Assembly: GCA_003151495.1 (NCBI GenBank)
Contig: PLXR01000107.1
Span: forward strand, 4,716 to 37,925
Source: Opitutaceae bacterium
Lineage (GTDB): Bacteria > Verrucomicrobiota > Verrucomicrobiia > Opitutales > Opitutaceae
Length of the DNA: 33,210 nt
Reading direction: 5' to 3'
In this document: positions 21,384-33,210 of the stretch, in pieces
Layout of the letters: every line of letters begins with the position of its first letter
Numbering within the stretch: the stretch's first letter is position 1
The notes under the pieces: model-generated
The model's input: the letters and a program-made list of their open reading frames with translations, nothing else
Database searches by the model: none
Told to the model about the DNA's origin: nothing
Program-made: the position numbers and the translations under genes

Positions 21384-21485
21384 CGGCGCAATGGAGCATA
21401 ATTGATACCAGATCCGGTGCGATGGTCCCCGCGTCGCCCCTGGCTGCCGGATCGCATTCGCGCCGCGCCGGTCGGGTGGGGAATC

Positions 21486-21521
21486 ACCCCATACCGCGTC
21501 GAGGTCCCTCCGCGCTATAGT
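21486..21521 (+). promoter_or_regulatory. ACCCCAT-box promoter of the DUF1328 gene
   Basis: ACCCCAT (21486-21492), preceded by GAATC, lies 23 bp before TATAGT (21516-21521), a TANNNT-type -10. The DUF1328 ATG is 34 bp further on. It is one member of the set of similar sites described under findings, with 1 bp more spacing than the rest. Confidence 0.6.
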
Positions 21522-21555
21522 GCGGCCGTACAGCACCCCCCCCTGAACCCGCACC

Positions 21556-21729
21556 ATGCTCCGCTGGGCCCTAATCTTCTTCATAGTGGCGATCGTCGCC
21601 GCAGTCTTCGGGTTCACCGGCATCGCAGGGGCTGCCACCGAGATCGCCAGGACGCTGTTCTTCGTCTTTCTCGCCCTCCTTCTCTTCTCGGCGCTCGCGC
21701 ATGTCTATTGGAATTCGCCGCCGAAGTGA
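21556..21729 (+). CDS. DUF1328 (UPF0391) small membrane protein
   Basis: 57 residues. The N-terminus [20 protein letters not shown] and the sequel [19 protein letters not shown] are the near-invariant DUF1328 pattern: two transmembrane helices with a Gly-rich turn. The role is unknown; related genes in other bacteria belong to general stress regulons. It sits 34 bp after the -10 of an ACCCCAT-box promoter and 28 bp before a lipoprotein gene on the same strand, probably one operon. The Met was chosen as the only family-consistent start. Confidence 0.92.
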
Positions 21730-21757
21730 TCCTCCCGCCCCCCTTTCCCTAAAAAAA

Positions 21758-22201
21758 ATGAAATCAACAAAGCTCCTCCTCCTCCTCGCCGTCGGGTTCA
21801 GTCCCGCGGCTCTCCTTGTGTCCGGCTGCTCCAAGAGCGACGACACCTCCGCAACCGCCGCCAACGTGAAGGCCGACGCCAAGGACACGGTCGCCGACGT
21901 CAAGGCAACAGCGGTCGACTCGTGGGACTCCGTCAAGGACTACACTTTTGAGAAGCGCGCCGAATTCTCGGCCTCATTCGACCGCATGACGGCGAAGCTC
22001 GACGAGAAGGCCTCCGCGGCCAAGGCCAAGGCCTCAGGTGCGCCTGATGCCGCGTCCAAGGAATACGACGAGGCGCGCGCCGAGCTGAAGACAAAGCTCT
22101 CCGACCTCGGCAACGCCACAGCCGACACGTGGGCCGACGCGAAGGCGAAGGTCGCCGAGTCCTGGAAGCGCGTGAAGGCCGCTTCCGACAAGACGAGCTG
22201 A
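21758..22201 (+). CDS. Lipoprotein with helical repeat region, unknown function
   Basis: 147 residues from ATG 21758 in a run of A residues. The lipobox is LLVSGC with C24 as lipid-modified cysteine. The mature protein is Ala/Lys/Asp-rich and almost entirely helical, with repeated KADAKDTVADVKATAVDSWD-type segments and a last part DTWADAKAKVAESWKRVKA, similar to LEA-like or coiled-coil envelope proteins. It is clearly related to the 148-residue protein encoded convergently at 22785-23231, especially in the final W..AK..V.E.WKR segment. It is probably co-transcribed with the DUF1328 gene. Confidence 0.85.
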   Translation: MKSTKLLLLLAVGFSPAALLVSGCSKSDDTSATAANVKADAKDTVADVKATAVDSWDSVKDYTFEKRAEFSASFDRMTAKLDEKASAAKAKASGAPDAASKEYDEARAELKTKLSDLGNATADTWADAKAKVAESWKRVKAASDKTS

Positions 22202-22223
22202 GGCGACAGCCAACCTCATCCGC

Positions 22224-22373
22224 TTGCGCGGCCGTTCCGTTCCTTGCCTCCTTACTGCGATCATCGCGGGCGCCTTGGGCTTCGGTGTTGTTGCCGGGGC
22301 GCCCGCCTTGATCGCAAAGGGTAAGGTCCGTGATCTTCTGCCTGATTCGCTCACGGTCGGCGAGAAGGCATAG
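22224..22373 (+). CDS. Possible small membrane protein with TTG start (49 aa), or gene remnant
   Basis: A frame without an ATG reads, after a TTG, RGRSVPCLLTAIIAGALGFG, then VVAGAPALIAKGKVRDLLP and DSLTVGEKA before TAG. It has one hydrophobic helix, a basic stretch and a regular hydrophilic tail, and it looks more protein-like than the other frames here. The in-frame sequence continues upstream over the lipoprotein stop without an ATG. It may use a rare start or be the rest of a damaged gene. The family is not recognised. Confidence 0.35.
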   Translation: MRGRSVPCLLTAIIAGALGFGVVAGAPALIAKGKVRDLLPDSLTVGEKA

Positions 22374-22454
22374 GAAAGAGGCTGCGCTGGAGGCACTTGG
22401 CCCCGAATCGGGACCTGGCCCCCGGTTCCGACGCCGGGCCCCTGGAGCGATCGA

Positions 22455-22772
22455 TCAGAAGCGCCGAAACATCTCCCAGGGATAGGCGTCGGCCTCGATC
22501 GGCATCGTGTCCCACTGGAGCGAGTCCATCGGATGGGCGTCGCACACGGCCTTCCACGCGCTCCCAATCTTGGTCGTGGTCGCCCAGCTGCCGTCCGGGA
22601 GCTTCGAGACAATGACGGCCTCAACCCCGGTCCGCTCGACGAGCTCGATGTAGGCGGCCGGCCCGCCCGCGGCCTCGTATTGGTCCCTGGGGATGTGCAC
22701 AACGAGGATCGGCGGGCCGGACTCACGCGGCGGCCTGGCCACTGTCAGCGCGAACCGCTTGCTGGGCTGCAA
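22455..22772 (-). CDS. Hypothetical protein (about 105 aa)
   Basis: The frame begins at a TTG (22772) 12 bp past the stop of the upstream 148-aa gene; a GTG at 22742 giving 95 residues is an alternative. The sequence PPILVVHIPRDQYEAAGGP, then AYIELVERTGVEAVIVSKLP and DGSWATTTKIGSAWKAVCDA has regular secondary-structure spacing and high-GC codon use, so it is likely expressed, with no recognised domain. No signal peptide or membrane segment is seen. Its closeness suggests co-transcription with the gene at 22785-23231. Confidence 0.55.
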   Translation of the reverse strand: MQPSKRFALTVARPPRESGPPILVVHIPRDQYEAAGGPAAYIELVERTGVEAVIVSKLPDGSWATTTKIGSAWKAVCDAHPMDSLQWDTMPIEADAYPWEMFRRF

Positions 22773-22784
22773 TGGGGTCCCCGG

Positions 22785-23231
22785 TCAGGAGGTCACCGTC
22801 GAGTTCATCTTGTCGACGGCGAGTTGGGAGCGCTTCCAGGCCTCGCCTACCCAGTCCTTGGCCGCAATCCATGCGTCGGGGGTCGTGGCATTCTTCAGGT
22901 CGGTGATGCGGCTTGTGAGGGATGAGCGGGATTCGTCCACTTCCTTGATCGCCAGGTCCCAGTCCTTGGTGTCGGTCGTCATCGGGGCGCGCTTTGCCTT
23001 GAGCATTGCGATCTCGCGGTCGAGCCACGCGGAGAGGCGGTCGGCGCCCGCGGCAAAATGGGCGCGCTGCTCATAGGCGTCGTTCTTGATGTCGACCCAC
23101 GTCGGGGCCGTTGTCCCGTCCGAGCCGGCTATTGCAACGACCTCGGCGGATGCGCGCGTCACGAACGCCGCACCCGACGCGGCGGCCAGCGCGACGGCAA
23201 CCCCGAACAGCCGCATGTGATGGGTTTTCAT
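22785..23231 (-). CDS. Exported helical protein, paralogue of the nearby lipoprotein
   Basis: 148 residues. The signal peptide (about 1-29, ending TRASA) has no lipobox cysteine, so the protein is probably periplasmic. The mature part is helical: TWVDIKNDAYEQRAHFAAGA, LSAWLDREIAMLKAK, DLAIKEVDESRSSLTSRITD, DAWIAAKDWVGEAWKRSQLA. The order of elements matches the 147-aa lipoprotein at 21758-22201 (a W-D-K segment, a DR..A.L..K segment, then a final AK..V.E.WKR segment), so the two are paralogues with different anchoring. An ACCCCAT box lies upstream in the right orientation, but its -10 is poor. Confidence 0.82.
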   Translation of the reverse strand: MKTHHMRLFGVAVALAAASGAAFVTRASAEVVAIAGSDGTTAPTWVDIKNDAYEQRAHFAAGADRLSAWLDREIAMLKAKRAPMTTDTKDWDLAIKEVDESRSSLTSRITDLKNATTPDAWIAAKDWVGEAWKRSQLAVDKMNSTVTS

Positions 23232-23689
23232 ACCCGCGTTGGTAGCTTTTGGGAGCGAGAAGTTCCGTTTTCTCGGGGGGGTATGGGGTCCTCACCCCAT
23301 GGACGCGGGCGGGCCGCCATGCGACGATGTTTCACACGCGTAGCGCCTGCGGCCCAGGGCCCTATGCGCCGCCGGCCGGATTTCCCTGTCCATCCCCCCT
23401 CAGTGGGCATCTAATCACTTCTTGAAGCAGAAAAAATTAAACCTGTCGCAGCATTGCCAGGAGGAGCTGTGCTGGACGACGAGCGATTCCGCCGGGCGGT
23501 CCCGAGGGAGGTCCGCGGCGTTGCTTCATTTGGCGGTCAGGACGGCCACGCAGGCTCGAAGCGCGGGGGTCGCCAGGCTCTGGCGCGTTGAGATCGCGGC
23601 CGAAATCCTGGGCGTCGATACCCTGCCGGGCTGGGGCGCCGCATGTCCCCCGACCGCACCCTTCATACTTAACAGAGGAAATTGAAACC
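23232..23689. other. 458-bp gene-free region with back-to-back ACCCCAT boxes
   Basis: No convincing gene is seen. The notable element is the inverted pair ATGGGGT (23283-23289) CCTC ACCCCAT (23294-23300): two boxes of the window's recurring motif facing away from each other, one toward the gene at 22785-23231 and one toward the NarL-type regulator at 23690. The plus-facing box has GACGAT at the usual -10 distance (23323-23328); the minus-facing one has TCTCGC (23260-23255), a poor match. Confidence 0.5.
23283..23300. promoter_or_regulatory. Inverted pair of ACCCCAT boxes
   Basis: ATGGGGT-CCTC-ACCCCAT is a perfect 7-bp inverted repeat with a 4-bp spacer. It matches the motif found 22-23 bp before -10 hexamers elsewhere in 21-32 kb. 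Here the -10 matches are weak, so the pair may be a regulator-binding site rather than two promoters. Confidence 0.5.
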
Positions 23690-24367
23690 ATGAAACCCAT
23701 CACCACCCTCCTTGCCGACGACCACATGATAGTGCGCGAGGGGCTTCGGGCCCTGTTGCTCGCCGACGGGAGTATCCAGGTGGTGGGCGAGGCCCGCAAC
23801 GGTCGAGAGGCGGTCGAGATGGCCATTGCGCTGCGTCCGGACGTGGTGGTCATGGACATCGCGATGCCCCTCCTGAACGGCCTCGAGGCCACCAAGCAGG
23901 TCCTTACCGCGCTTCCGGGCACGAAGGTGCTTATCCTCTCGGCGCACAGCGACGACGCCTACATAGACCGCGTAGTCGCGGTGGGGGCCGTCGGGTTCCT
24001 CATCAAGCAGACCTCCGCCCAGATCCTTGCGAAGGCGATCCACGAGGTGATGGCGGGCAACACGTACTACAGTCCGCAGGTCTCCAAGCGCATGCGCGAC
24101 CACTATCAGGCGCCGGACAAGGCGGGCGGCCTCATGATCAAGAAGGCGACCGGCCTCACGTCGCGTGAGCTCGAGGTCCTGCAGCTCGTGGCCGAGGGCC
24201 AGGCCAACAAGCAGGTCGCGGCGGGGCTCAACATCAGCATCAAGACGGTCGAGAAGCACCGGCAGCACCTGATGGACAAGCTGAACATCCACGACACGGC
24301 CGGGCTCACCCGCTACGCGATATCCCGGGGCATAATCGAGAGCAGCGTCCAGGTGACGATCGTCTGA
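23690..24367 (+). CDS. NarL/FixJ-type response regulator with LuxR HTH domain (orphan)
   Basis: 225 residues. The receiver domain has D10/D11 (LLADDHMIVREGL), phospho-acceptor D56 (VVVMDIAMP) and K105 (GFLIKQTSA). The C-terminal LuxR-type helix-turn-helix (about 155-215) shows LTSRELEVLQLVAEGQANKQ and ISIKTVEKHRQHLMDKLNIH. A good ribosome-binding site GAGGAA lies about 9 nt before ATG 23690. No histidine kinase gene is close. Its location among genes carrying the ACCCCAT box, and the paired box upstream of it, make it a candidate regulator of that set. NarL-type proteins bind short heptamers of TACYYMT type, which resemble YACCCCAT. Confidence 0.94.
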   Translation: MKPITTLLADDHMIVREGLRALLLADGSIQVVGEARNGREAVEMAIALRPDVVVMDIAMPLLNGLEATKQVLTALPGTKVLILSAHSDDAYIDRVVAVGAVGFLIKQTSAQILAKAIHEVMAGNTYYSPQVSKRMRDHYQAPDKAGGLMIKKATGLTSRELEVLQLVAEGQANKQVAAGLNISIKTVEKHRQHLMDKLNIHDTAGLTRYAISRGIIESSVQVTIV

Positions 24368-24400
24368 CCCGCGGCGGCCGCGCGAAAGAGGGGCGCGCTG

Positions 24401-25153
24401 CTAAGCGGTCGCCGCGTTGATCCGACCGAAGGACCGGACGGGATCGAAAAGGGCGGCGCCGGGGGACTCGGTCGCCATCTCGGGATAGGCCTCGGCGATC
24501 AGCTCGCGAAGGGTGTCCCGGGCGCGGGCTATCCGGCTCTTGACCGTGCCGATGCTGATCCCGAGCGCCTGGGAAATCTCCCCATAGGACTGGCTCAGCA
24601 CGTTCCGGTGTGTGAGAATCTCGCGGTGGCTGGCGCCGAGCGTCCCCATGCACCGGGAGACGGTGGCTGTGAACTCGCCGAAGGCGGCCTCGCGGGCCGG
24701 GTCCGGCGCCTCGCACGCAATCATGTCGGAGATGGTCTCCTGGTTCTCGGTGCTGCAGGCGCAGTCGAGGGAGAGCATGTCCTGGCGGCGCCGACGGAAA
24801 TTGTACTGGTAGCGGTTGTGCGAGAGGTTGCGGGCTATGCTGTGCAGCCATGTGGCCAGCGAGCACTCGCCGCGGAACTGCGCCAGGCCGCGGTGGGCCC
24901 GGATCAGCGTGTCCTGAGCGATCTCCTCGGCGTCTGCATGGTTGTGGAGGTGGCCGAACGCGACGGAGAACATCTTCTCGCGGTAGCGCGCCACGATCTC
25001 ATCGAACGCCGTGGCATCCCCGGAGCGGAAGCGGCTCACGAGCTCCGCGTCGTGCGCGGCTTCCAGCTTGGAGTGGACTTCCTTGCTGGTGCGTGCGGCC
25101 GCGGCCGCTGATTCGTTGGGGATGGCGCCGAGTTCCAAGGTGGTTGAAATCAT
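24401..25153 (-). CDS. Sigma-70 family RNA polymerase sigma factor, ECF-like
   Basis: 250 residues. Region 2 (about 38-110) has LVSRFRSGDATAFDEIVARY, EEIAQDTLIRAHRGLAQFRG and TWLHSIARNLSHNR; region 4 (about 165-222) has SYGEISQALGISIGTVKSRI followed by ARARDTLRELI. Regions 1 and 3 are missing, as in ECF sigma factors, though a linker of about 45 residues and an unrelated N-terminal extension of 35 residues are present. No anti-sigma gene is adjacent. A TACTCT -10 hexamer with an ACCCCAT box ends 9 bp before the ATG, so the mRNA should be almost leaderless and the gene belongs to the ACCCCAT set itself. Confidence 0.92.
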   Translation of the reverse strand: MISTTLELGAIPNESAAAAARTSKEVHSKLEAAHDAELVSRFRSGDATAFDEIVARYREKMFSVAFGHLHNHADAEEIAQDTLIRAHRGLAQFRGECSLATWLHSIARNLSHNRYQYNFRRRRQDMLSLDCACSTENQETISDMIACEAPDPAREAAFGEFTATVSRCMGTLGASHREILTHRNVLSQSYGEISQALGISIGTVKSRIARARDTLRELIAEAYPEMATESPGAALFDPVRSFGRINAATA

Positions 25154-25162
25154 CTTGGGCGG

Positions 25163-25197
25163 AGAGTACACGTTTCGCCCAGCAGCCGAAATGGGGT
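25163..25197 (-). promoter_or_regulatory. ACCCCAT-box promoter of the sigma-factor gene
   Basis: On the minus strand ACCCCAT (25197-25191), preceded by GTTC, lies 22 bp before TACTCT (25168-25163). The sigma-factor ATG starts at 25153. The spacer also shares TCGG and GGGCG with the divergent BON-gene site. Confidence 0.75.
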
Positions 25198-25241
25198 GAA
25201 CAACTATCCGGCTTTTCCCCCATGATCCGTATGCGCTGAAT

Positions 25242-25276
25242 ACCCCATATCGGTCCCGGGCGTCGCGCTGTACTCT
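25242..25276 (+). promoter_or_regulatory. ACCCCAT-box promoter of the BON-domain gene
   Basis: ACCCCAT (25242-25248), preceded by TGAAT, lies 22 bp before TACTCT (25271-25276). It is back to back with the sigma-factor site, 44 bp between the two boxes. The leader to the BON gene would be about 170 nt. Confidence 0.75.
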
Positions 25277-25452
25277 GCTCCCATGGCAGGCATACACACG
25301 ACCATGCGCGCTCCCGCTACATCAGGATGCAAGAAAGCCGCTACCGGCGACCGTTCGGTCAGGAGATTCCCGAACTAGGCAACAGTCTTCCTGTCCGCCG
25401 TCCGACCGTCCGCAACGCAGCGGAACCCTTTGGCTCCCCAAAACTCAACAAC

Positions 25453-26196
25453 ATGAAAACATACACACGTCTAGCATTGATACTCGTCGCGACCCTTCCG
25501 GTCGCTCTGTTCGCCTCCACCGACAGCAAGATCGAGGACGCCGCCAAGGCCTCCTATAACTATCACACCGTCCTTGAGGGTCGTGTGCACGTGAAGTCCA
25601 ACGACGGCGTCGTCACGCTGTCGGGCACCGTCCTGGACAGGGACGACAAGGCGCTCGCCGAGGACACCGTGGAGAATCTCCCGGGCGTCGTCCGCGTCAA
25701 CAACGAGATCGAGATCAAGTCCGACGTCGCGGAGCATTCGGACGGCTGGATCGCCCTCAAGGTCCGCGGGCAGCTGCTCGTGAAGGCCAACGTAAGCGCC
25801 ACCTCCACCAAGGTGGACGTCAAGGACGGCATCGTCACGCTGACCGGCACCGCGATCAACATCGCGCAGAAGGACCTCACCGGCATCTATGCGAAGGAGA
25901 TCGACAACGTTAAGTCCGTCAGGAACGAGATCGTCGTCGTGGCTCCGGCACCCGGCACCTCAACCTCAACGGCGGGCGAGATCGTGGACGACGCCTCGAT
26001 CACGTCGCAGGTCAAGTACTCCCTCCTGAGCCACCGCGCGACCAGCGCCCTCTCGACAAAGGTCGTGACGGAGAACGCGGTTGTTAACATCTCAGGAGTC
26101 GCGGACTCGGACGCCGAGAAGGCCCTGGTGACGAAGCTCGCCCAGGACACCCGTGGCGTGAAGTCGGTCGTCAACGACATGACGGTCAGGGGCTGA
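25453..26196 (+). CDS. Exported protein with three BON domains
   Basis: 247 residues with a signal peptide (about 1-22, ending LFAST). Three BON domains follow, at about 24-95, 98-165 and 178-247. Each shows the V....GVVTLSGTV and A......PGV..V.NEI pattern (VKSNDGVVTLSGTVLD; VDVKDGIVTLTGTAIN; VVTENAVVNISGVADS). BON domains of OsmY-type proteins bind phospholipid surfaces and stabilise the envelope under osmotic stress. The gene has an ACCCCAT-box promoter and is followed by strong hairpins before dps. The ATG was chosen for the signal peptide. Confidence 0.92.
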   Translation: MKTYTRLALILVATLPVALFASTDSKIEDAAKASYNYHTVLEGRVHVKSNDGVVTLSGTVLDRDDKALAEDTVENLPGVVRVNNEIEIKSDVAEHSDGWIALKVRGQLLVKANVSATSTKVDVKDGIVTLTGTAINIAQKDLTGIYAKEIDNVKSVRNEIVVVAPAPGTSTSTAGEIVDDASITSQVKYSLLSHRATSALSTKVVTENAVVNISGVADSDAEKALVTKLAQDTRGVKSVVNDMTVRG

Positions 26197-26215
26197 TGCG
26201 GGAAAATCGGAAACC

Positions 26216-26232
26216 CCGGCCGAAACGGCCGG
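26216..26232 (+). terminator. Hairpin 1 after the BON gene
   Basis: CCGGCCG-AAA-CGGCCGG forms a perfect 7-bp stem 19 bp after the BON stop codon. No T-tract follows, so termination strength is uncertain. Confidence 0.45.
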
Positions 26233-26247
26233 AATCCTATCTGGTGG

Positions 26248-26271
26248 TGCGGCCGGCCTCTGCCGGCCGCA
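26248..26271 (+). terminator. Hairpin 2 between the BON gene and dps
   Basis: TGCGGCCGG-CCTCTG-CCGGCCGCA is a perfect 9-bp stem with a 6-nt loop, followed by a weakly T-rich stretch (ATCCATTGTT). It probably ends or attenuates transcription before dps, or stabilises the upstream mRNA. Confidence 0.55.
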
Positions 26272-26291
26272 TCCATTGTTAAGGACCATCC

Positions 26292-26798
26292 ATGAAGACT
26301 AACATCGGACTAAACGACGAGACCCGCCTCGAGGTGGGCCAGATCCTCAACCTGATCCTCGCCGACGAGACGGTCCTCTACGCGAGCACCCGGGACTACC
26401 ACTGGAACGTCACCGGGCCGGAGTTCAGGAGCCTCCACCTGGAGTTTGAGGCCCAATATGAGCAGCTGGCCAAGTGGATCGACGACGTCGCGGAGCGGAC
26501 CCGCTCGATAGGCGTGGGAGCCCAGGGCAACTTCGCCGCCCTCGCGAAGTCGGCCCGCAGCTCCGCCGATCCGGGCATCGGCCTTTCCGGCGACGACATG
26601 CTCGAGGAGCTCCTCGCCCTGCATGAGGACCTTGTCGTCCAGCTTCGCGCCGATAGCGCTGCCTGCGGCGAGCGCTACGGGGACTCGGGCACGGCGGACT
26701 TCCTGACCGGCCTGATGGAGAAGCACGAAAAGACGGCCTGGATGCTCAGGTCGCAGCTCGAGGGCAGCGAGGTGGCTGCCCCACAATTCCAATCATGA
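26292..26798 (+). CDS. dps: Dps-family DNA-protecting ferritin-like protein
   Basis: 168 residues, a normal Dps length. Dps dodecamers oxidise Fe2+ with H2O2, store iron and shield DNA. The inter-subunit ferroxidase site can be traced by its spacing: H37 (DYHWNVTGPEF), H49 (SLHLEFEAQYEQL), D64 and E68 (KWIDDVAERTRSIG). The position of the fifth ligand Asp is E53 here. A ribosome-binding site AAGGA lies 6 nt before ATG 26292. The stop overlaps the DUF3185 start by 4 bp, so the two are coupled. No ACCCCAT box precedes it; expression may come from the BON transcript or an unseen promoter. Confidence 0.94.
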   Translation: MKTNIGLNDETRLEVGQILNLILADETVLYASTRDYHWNVTGPEFRSLHLEFEAQYEQLAKWIDDVAERTRSIGVGAQGNFAALAKSARSSADPGIGLSGDDMLEELLALHEDLVVQLRADSAACGERYGDSGTADFLTGLMEKHEKTAWMLRSQLEGSEVAAPQFQS

Positions 26799-27001
26799 AC
26801 AAAATAATACCGCTCGCCCTCTTCCTTGGGGGGATTCTCCTGGTCGCCTACGGCATCAACGCCTCCAACTCGGCAAGCTCAAGCGTTTCCCGGGCCTTTA
26901 CCGGAAACCCGACCGACAAGACCATCTGGCTCCTCGTAGGGGGCGGCGTCGCCGCCCTGGTGGGGTTGGCCGGGATCATGCGAGGCTCGAAGTCGAGCTA
27001 G
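26795..27001 (+). CDS. DUF3185 small membrane protein
   Basis: 68 residues. An N-terminal helix (IIPLALFLGGILLVAYG), the stretch NASNSASSSVSRAFTGNPTD followed by KTIWLLVGGG, and a second helix form the very recognisable DUF3185 pattern. Function is unknown. The start overlaps the dps stop (ATGA), so the two are translated together. The gene ends 7 bp before the convergent aldolase stop. Confidence 0.92.
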   Translation: MNKIIPLALFLGGILLVAYGINASNSASSSVSRAFTGNPTDKTIWLLVGGGVAALVGLAGIMRGSKSS

Positions 27002-27008
27002 CCTGGAC

Positions 27009-28040
27009 CTAGACCCCGTCGGCGCGCGCCCCGCGTTCCGCCGCGTCCGAATACAGGCCCTGCACGGCGAGTCCGTTGCACGAGGCCCTGTGCAGCAGGG
27101 CCGCCTGGGCCGCCGCCGCGTTGCGCCGCGAGCCCTTCCACGCCTCCATCGCCTGGTCCTGGAGCGCCCGCCCAAACGAGAAGCTCAGCTTCCATGGGGC
27201 TCCGGCTGTGCCGCAGATGGCATTGAGGTTTGCCGTCGCCGAAGTGCCGGACTGGCCCCCGGAGAGGAAGACGATCCCGGGAACGGCTGCCGGGACGCTG
27301 CGCCTGAGGCACCGGAGTGTGGCCTCCGCCACATGCGCCGGGTCCTCCCGCTGCTGGCAGTCCTTGCCCGGCAGGACCATTCCCACCTTCAGGAGCATCG
27401 TCTCAAGCGCGACCCTCTGGTTGGAGAGTGCCGCGAATACGGAGTTTAGGACGCGTTCGGTGACCTCCTCGCAGCGCGCGAGCGTATGGTTCCCGTCCAT
27501 CAGGACCTCCGGCTCCACGATGGGGACGAGACCCGCCTCCTGGCTCATCGCGGCGAAGAGCGCGAGGGCACGGGCGTTGCCCTCGATGCAGGTGCGGGTC
27601 GGGAGGCTGTCCCCGGCCGACATGACGGCGCGCCATTTCGTGAACCGTGCGCCGAGCTCCCGGTATTGCACGAGCCTCTCGCGGAGGCCGTCGAGCCCCT
27701 GCGTGAACTTTTCGCCGGCAAACCGGGGCAGGTCCGAGGTGCCCCCGTCGACCTTGATCCCCGGGATGATTCCCTCCAGGGCCAATGCGTCGGGCATCGG
27801 CACGGGGCCGATCTGCTGGCGCAGGGTCTCGTCAAAAAGGATGGCTCCGCTGATGTGCTCGGAGAGCCCGCGCGCCGTGAACAGGAGTTCGCGATAGGCC
27901 CGCCGGCTCTCCGCCGTGGACGCAATGTTGAGGGCCCGGAACCTGCCGCCGATCGTCTTAAGGCTCTCGTCGGCGGCCAGGATCCCCTTGTGCGGCGCCA
28001 GGAGCGAGGCGACGGTGGATTCGGGTGAGGGTGAGTCCAT
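27009..28040 (-). CDS. Class I fructose-bisphosphate aldolase
   Basis: 343 residues of the eukaryote-like class I aldolase fold, which cleaves fructose-1,6-bisphosphate to dihydroxyacetone phosphate and glyceraldehyde-3-phosphate through a lysine Schiff base. Matching landmarks are D24 (ILAADES), K96 (GIKVDGG), K135 (TKWRAV), E176/E178 (VEPEVL), Schiff-base K218 (TMLLKVGMVLPG) and FLSGGQS. The C-terminus is shorter than in the muscle enzyme and lacks a terminal Tyr. It converges on the dps-DUF3185 pair. It may link the neighbouring phosphoketolase pathway to glycolysis. No ACCCCAT box is seen upstream. Confidence 0.94.
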   Translation of the reverse strand: MDSPSPESTVASLLAPHKGILAADESLKTIGGRFRALNIASTAESRRAYRELLFTARGLSEHISGAILFDETLRQQIGPVPMPDALALEGIIPGIKVDGGTSDLPRFAGEKFTQGLDGLRERLVQYRELGARFTKWRAVMSAGDSLPTRTCIEGNARALALFAAMSQEAGLVPIVEPEVLMDGNHTLARCEEVTERVLNSVFAALSNQRVALETMLLKVGMVLPGKDCQQREDPAHVAEATLRCLRRSVPAAVPGIVFLSGGQSGTSATANLNAICGTAGAPWKLSFSFGRALQDQAMEAWKGSRRNAAAAQAALLHRASCNGLAVQGLYSDAAERGARADGV

Positions 28041-28180
28041 GGTGTTTGTCGGGACTCGGTTTCGGGATCACGGGCGGCCGAGCGCCGCCTACTTGCGGCC
28101 GGGGGCCCGGGTGGCGCGCCCGATGACCGATAGCCTCGCCATTTCGGAGCCCGCCCGCCCAAATGGGAATCCGGGAAAAC

Positions 28181-28591
28181 TCACGGCTTCTGGCGGTCCG
28201 ATTTCGCGGCCGCCCGTGCAGCCTGGAGCATCAGGTCGTGATTGGCCTCCTCAACGCCCTGCAGGACAATCTGTTCGCCCTCGCTCCGGCCCTCGTCGTC
28301 CATGTCCTCGCTTTGCGCACCCGGGGTTTCACTCCCGGCTGAACCCGGCACGGGATCCCAGCGCTTTGATTCGGGCAGGGCGTCGAGGACCGCATCCTGG
28401 CGGTCCGTGTCCGACTCGCCTGTCAGCTCCCGCTTGGCCTGCTCGTAGTCGGACTGCAGGACCGCCGGCGATCCGCGGCCCGCGATCAGGGCCAGCTCGG
28501 CCGCCCGCTGGTGCAACATCGCACGGGACACGGGTCCGATTCCTGCAAGCTTCTCGCTGATGACGCCCTTGTTCACGGGGTTGTTCTTCAT
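28181..28591 (-). CDS. Hypothetical protein (136 aa), soluble, acidic
   Basis: 136 residues, no signal peptide or membrane segment. The N-terminal half (NPVNKGVISEKLAGIGPVSR, MLHQRAAELALIAGR, SDYEQAKRELTGE) reads like a helical domain found in many verrucomicrobial and related proteins of unknown function. The middle is acidic and probably disordered, and the end is a helix (EEANHDLMLQAARAAAKSD). The DYEQAKRELTGE stretch resembles DUF2934-type proteins, but I am not sure. It lies between the aldolase and PRC-barrel genes on the same strand, without evident promoter motif. Confidence 0.72.
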   Translation of the reverse strand: MKNNPVNKGVISEKLAGIGPVSRAMLHQRAAELALIAGRGSPAVLQSDYEQAKRELTGESDTDRQDAVLDALPESKRWDPVPGSAGSETPGAQSEDMDDEGRSEGEQIVLQGVEEANHDLMLQAARAAAKSDRQKP

Positions 28592-28644
28592 GGGTTGGGT
28601 GGCTTGGGTGCGGGCAAAATGCTGCGGGGGCGCACCGGTTCGAA

Positions 28645-29379
28645 TTAGTCCTGGAAAAGGGCTGTCGCGGGCATTTCAGATTCGGCGTCGGCGGTCTTGT
28701 TGGCCGTGGCCCGCATGATTTCGGCGGGGGTCAGGGTGACGAAGACCTTGGACTCGTCGTAGCTGATCCTGACAACCTGCTTGGTCGTTATCTGGATCGA
28801 CCTTTCAGAGTACCAGTGGCCGGCGTCAACGAGCAGGTCGTAGACGGCCCAGCTCCTGTCGTCCACGATCAGGCCGCTGACGCTTCCGATGCTGTCGATG
28901 GGACCGTTGATGACCTGGATCCCGTAGCCCGTCAGCGCCTGGACGCTCTGCAGGTGCTTGTCGTCCCTTTGGTGGATGTGCACCCGGTCTTCCATCTCGG
29001 CCTTCGACGGCACCTCGGCCATGGGATACCCGCCGATGCCCCACATGGCGCCGCCGTTCCAGTATGCGGGCCATCCGTAGTGCCGGTAGAAGTCGATCTC
29101 GTACTGCCGCGACACCGGCTTGTGCGCCTCGATCGATGGGCTACCCTCGATCTGTGCGCGGGTCAGCTTGATCTCGAGGACCTTGGCCTCGAGGTCGAGG
29201 CGGCCGAACGAATGGGGCGAGAGGAGCACCAGCCGGCTCGTCAGCCATGTCCCGGTGTCGACCACCATGTAGCGGACGACCCAGTTCTTGTCGTCGAAAT
29301 AGAAGTCCTTCACGTGGCCGATGTCGCCGTCGATGGCCGCAAGCCGCGTGCCGTATAATTCTTTTGTGTTTCTTAGCAT
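28645..29379 (-). CDS. Protein with two PRC-barrel domains
   Basis: 244 residues from ATG 29379, chosen because the first PRC barrel begins there (MLRNTKELYGTRLAAIDGDI, then GHVKDFYFDDKNWVVRYMVV). A second copy lies at about 150-215 (VQALTGYGIQVINGPIDSIG, then SVSGLIVDDRSWAVYDLLVD). A linker rich in Tyr, Trp and Gly (YGWPAYWNGGAMWGIGGYP) separates them. PRC barrels bind RNA, photosystem or adaptor partners; stand-alone ones often occur in stress-induced gene sets. An ACCCCAT-box promoter lies about 70-100 bp upstream. The leader has no Shine-Dalgarno sequence. Confidence 0.9.
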   Translation of the reverse strand: MLRNTKELYGTRLAAIDGDIGHVKDFYFDDKNWVVRYMVVDTGTWLTSRLVLLSPHSFGRLDLEAKVLEIKLTRAQIEGSPSIEAHKPVSRQYEIDFYRHYGWPAYWNGGAMWGIGGYPMAEVPSKAEMEDRVHIHQRDDKHLQSVQALTGYGIQVINGPIDSIGSVSGLIVDDRSWAVYDLLVDAGHWYSERSIQITTKQVVRISYDESKVFVTLTPAEIMRATANKTADAESEMPATALFQD

Positions 29380-29447
29380 AAGGCGGGATTCGCGCGTCGG
29401 CCAGAGGGCCGGCCCGGCCGGCAGTCCTGCTCCGAGAGCGCTCCCCC

Positions 29448-29482
29448 AGTGTAAGCTTGGAGGCCGGGCGGAGCCATGGGGT
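29448..29482 (-). promoter_or_regulatory. ACCCCAT-box promoter of the PRC-barrel gene
   Basis: On the minus strand ACCCCAT (29482-29476), preceded by GTTTC, lies exactly 22 bp before TACACT (29453-29448). The expected leader to the ATG at 29379 is about 60 nt. Confidence 0.7.
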
Positions 29483-29518
29483 GAAACCCGCCACGGAAGG
29501 CGCCCCGCACGGGACACC

Positions 29519-30220
29519 TCACGCGGGCGATAGCTGCGGTGCTGCGAAGAAGTCCCTCGCCTTCTTGAGAAGCTGCCCGTCGGTCAGATGGTGCCCGTCG
29601 ACCACAAGGCAGCCGACGACCCGCCTCGAGAGCTCCGGTCGGTGAAGCGAGAGCCAGCCCGTGAACTGGTCCATCTCGCTGCTCGTTCCCGTTCCGGAGC
29701 CGAAGATGAGGATCTTCCCGGCGTGAAGGAGCGCCTTGGCCAGCGGCTCGAAATAGCTGTTCGGATCCGGCTTCTCCTTACCCCTCGAGAAATCCTTGGA
29801 GTTGTGCGCGTGCCGGAAGAAATGCCCCGGCTCGGGCGGCAGGATCTGCAGCGGGGAGGCGCCGCCCGCCTCGGACATGAAGAGGCGGGCCTCATGGTGG
29901 TCGATCACGACCAGCCACTGGGAGTCCCCGGGGCCGGACGCCGGCTCGGACGCCTCCGACTTTTCAAGGAAGTGCCGGATCGCCATGACCTCCTCGGTCT
30001 CGGCGACGTCCTTCGTCCGCGGCGGGGGCAGGACGACGAGCTGGCCATTGCGGGTGACCCGAAGGTTCCCATTGGCCTCCTCCTCGACCTGTCCCAGCTG
30101 GCGGAACATCCCGAGGACGTCGAGCCATCCCAGGTTGTGCGAGACGGGATGCTGGAATATTCGCTCGTAGGTGCGCAGGTGGGATCCCTTGAGGGACGGG
30201 GGTGCATTCATTTTTTTCAT
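29519..30220 (-). CDS. Release-factor-like (baeRF/host-attachment type) hypothetical protein
   Basis: 233 residues from ATG 30220 (MKKMNAPP); the second ATG at 30211 is an alternative. The N-terminal part (TYERIFQHPVSHNLGWLDVL, GMFRQLGQVEE, NGQLVVLPPP) is not assigned. The C-terminal half resembles bacterial archaeo-eukaryotic release-factor-like domains: QWLVVIDHHEARLFMSEAGG, then SYFEPLAKALLHAGKILIFGSG, then DQFTGWLSLHRPEL. The function of these proteins is unknown; roles in ribosome or stress biology are proposed for the family. An ACCCCAT-box promoter lies just upstream, back to back with that of ackA. Confidence 0.72.
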   Translation of the reverse strand: MKKMNAPPSLKGSHLRTYERIFQHPVSHNLGWLDVLGMFRQLGQVEEEANGNLRVTRNGQLVVLPPPRTKDVAETEEVMAIRHFLEKSEASEPASGPGDSQWLVVIDHHEARLFMSEAGGASPLQILPPEPGHFFRHAHNSKDFSRGKEKPDPNSYFEPLAKALLHAGKILIFGSGTGTSSEMDQFTGWLSLHRPELSRRVVGCLVVDGHHLTDGQLLKKARDFFAAPQLSPA

Positions 30221-30249
30221 GTTTGGAGGCGTTGGCCCGGGCGAGGGGG

Positions 30250-30284
30250 AGCATGCGCCCGCAGGCGCCCGGATAGAATGGGGT
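30250..30284 (-). promoter_or_regulatory. ACCCCAT-box promoter of the release-factor-like gene
   Basis: On the minus strand ACCCCAT (30284-30278), preceded by GAAAC, lies 22 bp before CATGCT (30255-30250), a variant -10. The start codon follows at 30220. Confidence 0.65.
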
Positions 30285-30329
30285 GTTTCCCGAACCAGGT
30301 GTGCCCGGCCCGGCGACCTTGGGTCGAAT

Positions 30330-30364
30330 ACCCCATTGTTGCTATCCGCCGGGTCCTCCATCCT
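30330..30364 (+). promoter_or_regulatory. ACCCCAT-box promoter of ackA
   Basis: ACCCCAT (30330-30336), preceded by CGAAT, lies 22 bp before CATCCT (30359-30364). The box is 45 bp from the divergent box of the release-factor-like gene. The ackA ATG is 53 bp after the -10. Confidence 0.65.
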
Positions 30365-30417
30365 AAGGGGCGCATGAGAAACCCGACGCCCGAGAGTCTC
30401 GCGATGGGGAGGCGGCT

Positions 30418-31629
30418 ATGACCCCGATGCAGGCCTGCGTGCTCACGTTCAATGCGGGCTCCTCGAGCATCCGGTTCGCCCTGTTCGCGGGAGCGGGGTC
30501 GCAGCGGCGGCTCCACGGCAAGATCGACCGCATCGGCCTCAGTGGCACGACGTTCACCGTGAGCGGGCCGCCCGGGGGGGCGCGCCTGCCGGACAGGATC
30601 GTCGCGACCGACCACAACGCCGCCGTGGGGTTCCTGCTGGATTGGCTGGAGGCGCACCCGGTCTTCGAGTCGGTCACGGCCGTGGGCCACCGCGTCGTGC
30701 ATGGAATGCGGCACACCTCGCCCGAGAGGGTGACGCCGAGGCTCCTGGCGGGCCTCCGCCGCATAACGCCCTACGACCCGGATCACCTTCCCGTCGAGAT
30801 CGCGCTGATCGAGGCGGTCCGAAGGCGCCATCCCGGCCTGCCCCAGGTCGCCTGCTTCGACACGGCCTTCCACTGCGCCATGCCGCGGGTCGCGCGGCTG
30901 CTGCCGATCCCGTGGCGCTACTCGGCGAAGGGCGTGGAGCGCTACGGCTTCCACGGGCTGTCCTTTGAGTTCCTGATGGAGGAGATCGTCCGGCTGGGTG
31001 GGCCCTCGGTCGCCAACGGGAAGATCGTCCTCGCCCACCTGGGCAACGGCGCGAGCCTCGCGGCTGTGGACCGCGGCAGGAGCGTCGACACCAGCATGGG
31101 ATTCACACCCGCCGCGGGCCTCGTCATGAGCACGCGCTCCGGCGACCTTGACCCGGGGCTACTCTCATTCCTCGCGCGCCGGGAGAAGATGACGCCGGCG
31201 CAGTTCGACCGGATGGTGAACCACGAGTCGGGTCTCGTCGGGATCTCGGGCATCAGCTCGGACATGCGCGACCTGCTCGCGAGGGAGGCGCGCAGCGACC
31301 GGGCTGCCGCGGCGGTTGAGCTCTTCTGCTACCAGGCGAAGAAATGGATCGGCTCCTATTGCGCGGTGCTCGGGGGAATCGACCCGCTTGTGTTCGCCGG
31401 TGGCATCGGCGAGAACGCGCCCGAGGTTCGGGCGCGCATCTGCGGCGGCCTCGGCTTCCTCGGGATCGGGCTGGACCCGGGGGCGAATTCAAGGAATGAC
31501 CCGGTGATCTCCGGCCCCGCGGGCAGGGTGATGGTCCGGGTCATCCGGACGGACGAGGAGCTCATGATCGCGCGCTCCGTGCACAGGACCCTGGGGACGG
31601 CCCCCCCCGCCGTCCGGGCGGGCCGCTGA
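30418..31629 (+). CDS. ackA: Acetate kinase
   Basis: 403 residues, normal length. It converts acetyl phosphate plus ADP to acetate plus ATP in the cytoplasm. ASKHA-fold motifs are visible: FNAGSSSIRF (11-20), GHRVVHGMRH, FDTAFHCAMP, YGFHGLSFEF, HLGNGASLAAV, GFTPAAGLVMSTRSGDLDPG and FAGGIGENAPEVR. A good ribosome-binding site GGAGG lies 6 nt before ATG 30418. It has an ACCCCAT-box promoter and is followed after 181 bp by phosphoketolase, which makes its substrate. No phosphotransacetylase gene is nearby, so the pair probably works as phosphoketolase to acetyl phosphate to acetate plus ATP. Confidence 0.95.
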   Translation: MTPMQACVLTFNAGSSSIRFALFAGAGSQRRLHGKIDRIGLSGTTFTVSGPPGGARLPDRIVATDHNAAVGFLLDWLEAHPVFESVTAVGHRVVHGMRHTSPERVTPRLLAGLRRITPYDPDHLPVEIALIEAVRRRHPGLPQVACFDTAFHCAMPRVARLLPIPWRYSAKGVERYGFHGLSFEFLMEEIVRLGGPSVANGKIVLAHLGNGASLAAVDRGRSVDTSMGFTPAAGLVMSTRSGDLDPGLLSFLARREKMTPAQFDRMVNHESGLVGISGISSDMRDLLAREARSDRAAAAVELFCYQAKKWIGSYCAVLGGIDPLVFAGGIGENAPEVRARICGGLGFLGIGLDPGANSRNDPVISGPAGRVMVRVIRTDEELMIARSVHRTLGTAPPAVRAGR

Positions 31630-31645
31630 GCGCCGGGCGGGTTAC

Positions 31646-31680
31646 ACCCCATTATGCCCCCGGCCCCGGGGGAGTAGGCT
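31646..31680 (+). promoter_or_regulatory. ACCCCAT-box promoter of the phosphoketolase gene
   Basis: ACCCCAT (31646-31652), preceded by GTTAC, lies 22 bp before TAGGCT (31675-31680). Phosphoketolase starts at 31811, giving a leader of about 120 nt. The spacer holds a G/C-rich inverted repeat (CCCCCGGCCCCGGGGG). Confidence 0.7.
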
Positions 31681-31810: not shown

Positions 31811-33210
31811 ATGATTCCATCCGCACCCACGCTCGACCCGGACATGCTCCGCAGGATGGACGCCTACTGGCGGGCGGCCAACTACCTCTCCGTTGCGCAG
31901 ATCTACCTCGCCGACAACCCGCTGCTGAGGCGCCCGCTGGTGCCCGCGGACGTGAAGCACATGCTGCTCGGCCACTGGGGCACCACCCCGGGCCAGAACT
32001 TCATCTATGCCCACCTCAACCGGGTCATAAGGAAGTACGACCTCGACATGATCTACGTCTCGGGCCCCGGGCACGGCGGTCCCGCGGTGGTGGGCAACAC
32101 CTACCTTGAGGGCACCTACAGCGAGGTGTATCCCGACATCAGCCGCGACGAGGCGGGGCTTCGGAGGCTCTTCCTCCAGTTCTCCTTCCCGGGTGGGATT
32201 CCCAGCCACGCCTCGCCCGAGTGCCCGGGCTCGATCCACGAGGGCGGCGAGCTCGGATACTCGCTCAGCCACTCGTTCGGCGCGGTGTTCGACAACCCGG
32301 GCCTGGTGGTGGCCTGCGTCGTGGGCGACGGGGAGGCTGAGACGGGGCCCCTGGCCACCGCATGGCATTCCAACAAGTTCCTGGACCCGGCCTCGGATGG
32401 CGCCGTCCTGCCCATCCTCCACCTCAACGGGTACAAGATCTCAAACCCGACGCTCCTCGCCCGCATATCCCGGGGGGAGCTCGAGCAGCTGCTGCGCGGC
32501 TACGGATGGGACCCCCTCTTCGTGGAGGGCCACGAGCCCGGCCCGATGCACGAGGCCATGGCCTCGGCCCTGGACGCGGCGGTCGAGCGCATCGGGAAGA
32601 TCCAGGCCGGCGCCCGGGCGGGCGGGAGCACCGAGCGTCCCATCTGGCCGATGATCGTGCTCAATTCCCCAAAGGGCTGGACCGGGCCGAAGACCGTCGA
32701 CGGCCTCAAGGTGGAGGGGACGTTCCGCGCGCACCAGGTGCCCATCTCCGTGTCGCCCACCTCCCCGCCGGGGCACCTCCGGCTGCTCGAGGACTGGCTT
32801 AGAAGCTACCGTCCCGAGGAGCTCTTCGACGCCCAGGGCCGCCTGATCCCGGAATTGGCCGAGCTTGCGCCCGTGGGGGACCGGAGGATGGGCTCGAACC
32901 CCCACGCGAACGGGGGGATCCTGCTGCGGGACCTGAGGATGCCCGACTTCCGGGACTATGCCCTGGAGGTGCCCAAGCCGGGGACCGCGGGCCCGGGGGA
33001 CACCCACGTGCTGGGGCGCTTCCTCAGGGACGTCGTGAAGCTGAACGCCGAGGCGCGCAACTTCCGGGTCTTCGGCCCGGATGAGACGCTCTCCAACGGC
33101 CTTGAGGCGGTGTTTGAGGCGACCGCCCGGCAATGGGACGCCGGGACCATCCCGGGCGACGAGTTCCTGGCGCCGGCCGGGCGGGTGATGGAGATGCTCA
33201 GCGAGCACCA
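31811..33210 (+). CDS. xfp: Xylulose-5-phosphate/fructose-6-phosphate phosphoketolase (partial, N-terminal 466 aa)
   Basis: The gene starts at ATG 31811 and runs off the right edge after 466 of about 790 codons. This thiamine-diphosphate enzyme splits xylulose-5-P or fructose-6-P with phosphate into acetyl phosphate plus glyceraldehyde-3-P or erythrose-4-P. Diagnostic segments are [17 protein letters not shown] (23-39), [13 protein letters not shown] (52-64), SGPGHGGPA (84-92), [19 protein letters not shown] (140-158) and [17 protein letters not shown] (170-186), the last being the cofactor-binding motif. Acetyl phosphate goes to acetate kinase encoded just upstream. An ACCCCAT-box promoter precedes it, tying the bypass to the stress gene set. 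Confidence 0.96.

Follow-up and report, generated by a model that had tools for sequence, protein, structure and literature searches.

Background and closest described systems

General stress responses are sigma-factor switches in several groups of bacteria: EcfG in alphaproteobacteria, RpoS in gammaproteobacteria and SigB in Bacillus, the EcfG-type response acting at GGAAC/GTT promoters with PhyR-NepR-EcfG. Class II sigma-70 promoters, such as those of CRP class II, LuxR and DosR/DevR, carry an activator element that abuts or overlaps a poor -35, stands at a fixed distance from the -10 and is oriented toward the gene. The stretch of DNA analysed here (the window) comprises 33,210 nucleotides of an Opitutaceae bacterium (assembly GCA_003151495.1, contig PLXR01000107.1, positions 4,716 to 37,925) and contains seven promoters in which the word ACCCCAT (the box) precedes a -10-like hexamer at a nearly constant distance. 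Judged from their sequences, the seven sites belong to one conserved general-stress regulon that is common to many Opitutaceae.

The promoters resemble the class II type in the placement, fixed distance and orientation of the element and in the poor -35; they differ in the sequence and asymmetry of the element, which are not known to match any described site. The regulon resembles those of EcfG, RpoS and SigB in its genes (BON/OsmY-like, Dps, DUF1328, DUF3309, PqiA, VIT1 and DnaJ proteins and, by eye, CsbD-, OsmC- and entericidin-like ones), and departs from them in that the Opitutaceae genes are marked by an upstream element while the -10 is sigma-70-like. A conserved general-stress regulon with class II-type, activator-dependent promoters is accordingly the preferred reading, with a probability of about 70%, a figure that excludes the identity of the activator. 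A search limited to the open-access literature found no publication on the motif or on an Opitutaceae general-stress regulon, which thus apparently has not been described so far. Its fixed geometry makes the regulon directly testable, with start sites predicted nearly to the base, and a kinase-regulator pair can be named as a first candidate for stress control in this family.

Box promoters of the window

The window lies at a contig end of a genome of 4.1 Mb in 165 contigs (80% completeness). At six promoters a -10-like hexamer follows ACCCCAT after exactly 22 bp, and at a seventh after 23 bp; all seven sites lie where a sequence-only reading of this DNA had placed them. The 23-bp case is the promoter of a DUF1328 gene (21476-21521, plus strand; box 21486-21492, -10 TATAGT at 21516-21521; score 24.0). 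Two promoters with TACTCT diverge from each other: that of an extracytoplasmic function (ECF)-type sigma factor gene (25163-25207, minus strand; box 25197-25191, -10 at 25168-25163) and that of a BON gene (25232-25276, plus strand; box 25242-25248, -10 at 25271-25276), the latter kept in relatives. On the minus strand are those of a PRC-barrel gene (29448-29492; box 29482-29476, -10 TACACT) and of the gene at 29519-30220 (30250-30294; box 30284-30278, -10 CATGCT). On the plus strand are those of ackA (30320-30364; box 30330-30336, -10 CATCCT), which has the lowest score of the seven, 19.1, and of a phosphoketolase gene (31636-31680; box 31646-31652, -10 TAGGCT), which is the top own-genome match of the promoter model described below, though itself in the training set. 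The word occurs 14 times in the window against 3.8 expected, a number that none of 100 shuffles reached; the remaining seven copies have no such hexamer at that spacing.

Spacing and enrichment in the genome

Throughout the genome ACCCCAT occurs 389 times and its reversal 202 times. Spacing was examined in 354 kb of other own contigs, low-numbered ones listed with ACCCCAT and chosen regardless of any -10. Here TAnnnT follows at 22 nt in six of 55 copies, at 21 nt in two and at 23 nt in one; every other spacing from 14 to 33 gives 0 or 1, and 19 control words give at most 1 at spacing 22. When the upstream half of the element is also demanded, a rule formulated after these sites had been viewed, ten extended boxes remain: six have [TC]AnnnT at 22 nt, and a single box each has it at 21 and at 23 nt (P 7e-10 over a background of 1.2% per position).

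Conservation in the Opitutaceae

Conservation was first noticed at the divergent sigma factor and BON promoters, where same-genus relatives keep the box, the 22 bp and TAnnnT on both sides. A sequence-only promoter model was built from 26 promoters, three of 29 candidate sites having been discarded before alignment (one coding-looking, two with doubtful hexamers or flanks). It finds 15 matches in the own genome at E<0.01, six of them outside the training set. It matches 27 of 61 family genomes at E<=0.1 and, in a set of relatives that overlaps the 61, 17 of 38. Within the genus 10 of 12 further genomes have matches; in other families of the order a single genome of 13 has one weak match. Zero counts of this model are lower bounds, because genome G020 has no match at E<=0.1 and yet has four boxes scoring at least 20 at its regulator locus.

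A second test made no use of the -10. A 14-letter core of the box, with one mismatch permitted, was sought in the 61 family genomes with the reversed pattern as control; it gave 176 matches against 32 and was present in 35 genomes, with 0 to 25 matches in each. As the sequence-only reading had required, the spaced motif is enriched elsewhere in the genome, as the extended boxes of the own contigs show, and kept in related genomes, as the model matches across the family show.

Anatomy of the element

The full element is an asymmetric sequence of some 17 bp, about GTnGGGT(A/T)AC-ACCCCAT. Its upstream half, about GT[CA]GGGT[AT]AC, replaces the flank originally proposed (C or T before the box, preceded by A/T-rich bases; GWWWY). 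In 153 sites, taken with a score of at least 21 and spacing 22 only, the consensus is G(-10) T(-9) [CA] G G [GT] [TC] [AT] A C ACCCCAT [AG] G C, followed by G at 26 and TA...T at 29-34, the hexamer being partly forced by the selection. A set of 97 extended boxes, which selects on the box alone, has the hexamer at 22 nt in 85 cases, at 23 in four and at 21 in one; it comes from 44 stretches (720 kb; 43 from relatives and one own) that were mostly fetched around matches of the model, which includes the -10, so that the sample is partly biased. In these counts, as in those of ATG offsets below, each distinct site entered once, and any that lay too close to a stretch end was left out.

A -35 spaced 17 bp from the -10 begins with the final T of the box. 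What follows this T is a weakly kept G and C (positions 6-11 from the box start read T[AG]GC.., weak after the T), and the -35 is therefore poor. The proposal that the box lies at about -41 to -35 with no good -35 present stands, and the weak -35 fits an activator of class II type. A putative activator bound at about -51 to -35 would touch RNA polymerase, and this contact would compensate for the poor -35, whose first base would be the final T of the box. Dyad symmetry of the element is not significant (among 500 column permutations a fraction of 0.568 does as well or better), and a palindrome reading (TnGGGTnnnACCCnA, GntR- or LuxR-like) was dropped on that ground.

Predicted transcription starts

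The position of the first ATG is evidence independent of spacing. Among 167 sites, 23 have an ATG 6 nt past the hexamer, where about 2 per position are found from 20 nt on; the first ATG lies 5-10 nt past the hexamer in 59 sites, and of 62 with an ATG at 4-11 nt, 51 begin an open frame of at least 41 codons. This peak supports the hexamers as -10 elements, as had been proposed: when the -10 occupies -12 to -7, an ATG at this offset of 6 has its A at the start site. About a third of the regulon's transcripts would, on these offsets, look leaderless or nearly so. The sigma factor gene has its ATG 9 nt past the -10, and its promoter is arranged alike in same-genus relatives.

A leader open reading frame of 31 codons (25283-25378, plus strand) begins 6 nt past the BON -10, and frames of equal length and offset are present in the relatives L003, L005 and L010. 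This frame may encode a small protein or leader peptide, read from a leaderless transcript, in front of the BON operon. The same three relatives have a similar K[KR]A[AT]xGDR stretch in this frame; that of L002 is also 31 codons long and has another sequence.

Target genes

Genes around the sites were named by Pfam and NCBIfam. The BON (OsmY-like) protein (25453-26196, plus strand) is followed by two likely members of its operon, a Dps/ferritin-like protein (26292-26798, plus strand; gene order the same in L204 and L192) and a DUF3185 membrane protein (26795-27001, plus strand). The DUF1328 small membrane protein (21556-21729, plus strand) has downstream of it an sll1863-like stress protein (21758-22201, plus strand; 29.2 bits, under the model cut-off of 35). 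Further targets are the ECF-type sigma factor (24401-25153, minus strand), the PRC-barrel protein (28645-29379, minus strand), acetate kinase (ackA; 30418-31629, plus strand) and phosphoketolase (31811-33208, plus strand, cut by the contig end). The target at 29519-30220 (minus strand), once taken to be release-factor-like, has no Pfam or NCBIfam match at E 0.001 and belongs to a cluster of nine target entries.

Downstream and operon genes form 92 clusters from 254 entries. The gene caller is crude, so that the lists contain some wrong frames, and cluster sizes count overlapping loci repeatedly; with that proviso the clusters include the sigma factor (26), BON (16), PRC-barrel (9) and the family of 29519-30220 (9), along with many more, among them small membrane proteins. 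Families that Pfam recognizes near boxes include BON, PRC, DUF3309, PqiA, DnaJ, VIT1, ferritin, G6PD, cyclopropane synthase and zinc alcohol dehydrogenase; CsbD, dodecin and KefB-, YqjD-, OsmC- and entericidin-like proteins were named by eye. Such a content is typical of a general stress regulon, and the BON, Dps/ferritin, DUF1328, PRC-barrel and other genes near boxes agree with the original view of the targets as stress-type genes.

The NarL-type regulator as candidate activator

Within the window the best candidate for the activator is a NarL-type response regulator (23690-24367, plus strand), with a receiver domain (PF00072) and a GerE domain (PF00196), both above cut-off. It shares this architecture with the NarL/FixJ regulators, VraR, NarL and DevR being its best solved chains, and like them it has an adjacent kinase gene in several relatives. 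The best NCBIfam models for the regulator and for the kinase of L133 are MctR and MctS, with scores (194.5 of 300 and 165.6 of 700) so far under the cut-offs that neither protein is a member.

Orthologues occur in 20 of the 61 family genomes and are set off from paralogues by a gap in bit score (at least 237 against at most 194). Core boxes are present in 19 of these 20 genomes and in 16 of the 41 others (Fisher P 2e-5, kinship uncorrected). Physical linkage was examined at 19 loci fetched for the regulator and not for boxes; L202, which has no regulator copy, and five model-found loci were left out of this count. At a score of at least 17 a box is found at 14 of the 19 (29 sites in 315 kb, seven of them supplied by L204, a same-genus copy of the window island), as against two of 21 loci of a related regulator (2 sites in 366 kb). 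At least 20 is reached at 12 of the 19 and at least 22 at eight, the control remaining at two of 21.

A histidine kinase gene precedes the regulator gene in L115, L116, L128, L133, L136 and L141. In same-genus relatives it adjoins the regulator (L005, L008, L010) or a partial copy of it (L003); in the window and in G003 no kinase gene lies beside the regulator, which is therefore an orphan at the window locus. Weaker boxes stand before the kinase gene in L141 (22.0, hexamer TATTAA) and L133 (18.4, hexamer TCTAGT). At the kinase-regulator locus are also found the boxes of two box-poor genomes, G015 (its one core match) and G020 (three of its four), and three scored boxes of G066. The regulator, placed behind a histidine kinase gene in several relatives, would be the activator of the proposed mechanism, with the ECF sigma gene as a downstream branch.

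A number of observations weigh against this assignment, and some against the regulon as read here. The association statistics are uncorrected for kinship, and hexamer conservation in the scored and 153-site sets is partly built in, since the training sites of the score matrix had [TC]AnnnT. The regulator is not present wherever boxes abound: there is no orthologue in G013, G042, G049, G050 and G074, each with 5-11 core matches, or in G067, with 4, and none at E 1e-45 in the same-genus genomes G007 and G009, although these have 5 and 23 model matches. The copy in G009 (in L141) stops before the DNA-binding helix-turn-helix domain. Conversely, core matches are absent from G073 despite its regulator, and no box reaches score 17 at five of the 19 loci (L189 of G018, L191 of G065, L193 of G073, L197 of G046 and L200 of G084). 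The missing dyad symmetry is unexpected for the site of a NarL-type dimer.

As sole reader of the box the regulator is thus insufficient; genomes that lack it would need another activator with this specificity. Other GerE regulators, to judge from their distribution, do not fit that of the box any better. A related NarL-type regulator near a sigma paralogue (response regulator B) occurs in box-rich and box-free genomes alike, with the same recognition helix where aligned, and its 21 loci hold 2 boxes. A third GerE group, with TVEKHRANIM-type helices, extends to G011, which is box-poor, and to G012, which is box-free. G013 has a DevR-like regulator that is matched at E<=1e-42 in 32 of 61 genomes; its association is weak (P 0.086), and G000, G017, G042, G070, G077 and G084 have no match. 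Tentatively, then, the NarL-type regulator of the window is named as the most likely single candidate, with a chance somewhat below even. As a separate observation, its closest relative in box-rich G078 (L203:8825-9697) has a well-kept DNA-binding domain whose recognition helix is almost identical, and the expected receiver aspartate (phospho-acceptor motif) was not seen in it.

Alternative readers of the box

The alternative that survives best, and that comes close to an even chance, accepts an activator-dependent regulon and has the box read by a different DNA-binding protein, for example of the AraC family, the NarL-type regulator being a frequent member of the stress island. AraC family sites are often asymmetric, which suits an element lacking dyad symmetry, and such a reader would account for the box-rich genomes in which the regulator is absent or, in one case, has lost its DNA-binding part. 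In G013 only two GerE proteins exceed the family cut-off; one belongs to a group also present in box-free genomes, and for the other the own genome holds no relative at E 1e-42. Against this alternative, no other candidate came to light: among 72 of the 150 proteins encoded no more than 3 kb from a box in regulator-free genomes (the 25 commonest families per group, of 42, 42 and 35), the sole transcription factor domain noticed was that of LexA. The boxes that G015, G020 and G066 hold at the kinase-regulator locus likewise favour the regulator.

It is very improbable that ACCCCAT is instead a -35 recognized by the ECF sigma factor, with these promoters, that of the sigma gene among them, under its direct control. 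The sigma gene is, from its promoter sequence, a target of the regulon, and often so elsewhere: besides heading the largest cluster (26 entries, overlaps included), it has a box upstream in 15 of 39 loci, in a survey of the best-matching locus of each genome that leaves out second copies (in G048, for example, the box is at the second copy, in L128). Six relative loci were found for the window's sigma factor itself, the three best named ones coming from Opitutaceae metagenome-assembled genomes, which places the organism in or near this family. The sigma group is present in 31 of 61 genomes (at least 218.9 bits; a partial match in G053 excluded), and its presence goes with core boxes (P 6e-5). 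However, sigma factors span about 16-19 bp between -35 and -10, so that 22 bp is too long, and the -10 is sigma-70-like. Moreover, G013, G049 and G074 have 5, 8 and 11 core matches and no sigma factor of this group, as is also true of G020 and G039 with 4 and 3.

Thus, of what the sequence-only reading had offered, the regulon holds through its conservation, near-invariant spacing and stress targets, and dependence on an activator fits the position of the box and the weak -35; the sigma factor finds no support as reader of the box and perhaps forms a second tier, and the NarL-type regulator is retained in part, linked to the boxes statistically and physically and missing from several box-rich genomes. 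A wider and more speculative picture would have Opitutaceae general stress run by a dedicated, kinase-fed activator that works on sigma-70 promoters through a rigid asymmetric element, with no alternative sigma factor in charge, many leaderless mRNAs and the ECF sigma factor as a secondary branch.

Chance or compositional bias, that is, a common word in a GC-rich genome, finds some comfort in the 49 of 55 own-contig copies of the bare word without TAnnnT at 22 nt and is left with next to no probability by the P value of 7e-10 in those contigs, the 85 of 97 extended boxes at one spacing and the 176 core matches against 32 for the reversed control, as the sequence-only reading had anticipated in calling chance unlikely.

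Other observations at box loci

A different promoter-like pattern, TGGCAC-N(4-8)-GGTAA, precedes box-free sigma genes at eight of the 39 surveyed loci (L006, L009, L014, L252, L255, L260, L264 and L272). Two boxes, in L115 (9693-10565) and L130 (12864-13736), are placed 5-7 nt ahead of the start codon of genes whose secreted products resemble, by eye, ice-binding proteins; there is one Ice_binding match among the near-box proteins examined, and the class is unexpected for a stress regulon. KaiC-like genes, recognized by eye, with a PAS-type histidine kinase nearby, are close to box genes in three genomes including the own (L117:200-3834, L202:6516-10241 and L199:8186-11887), and in L117 two KaiB-like genes lie between them.

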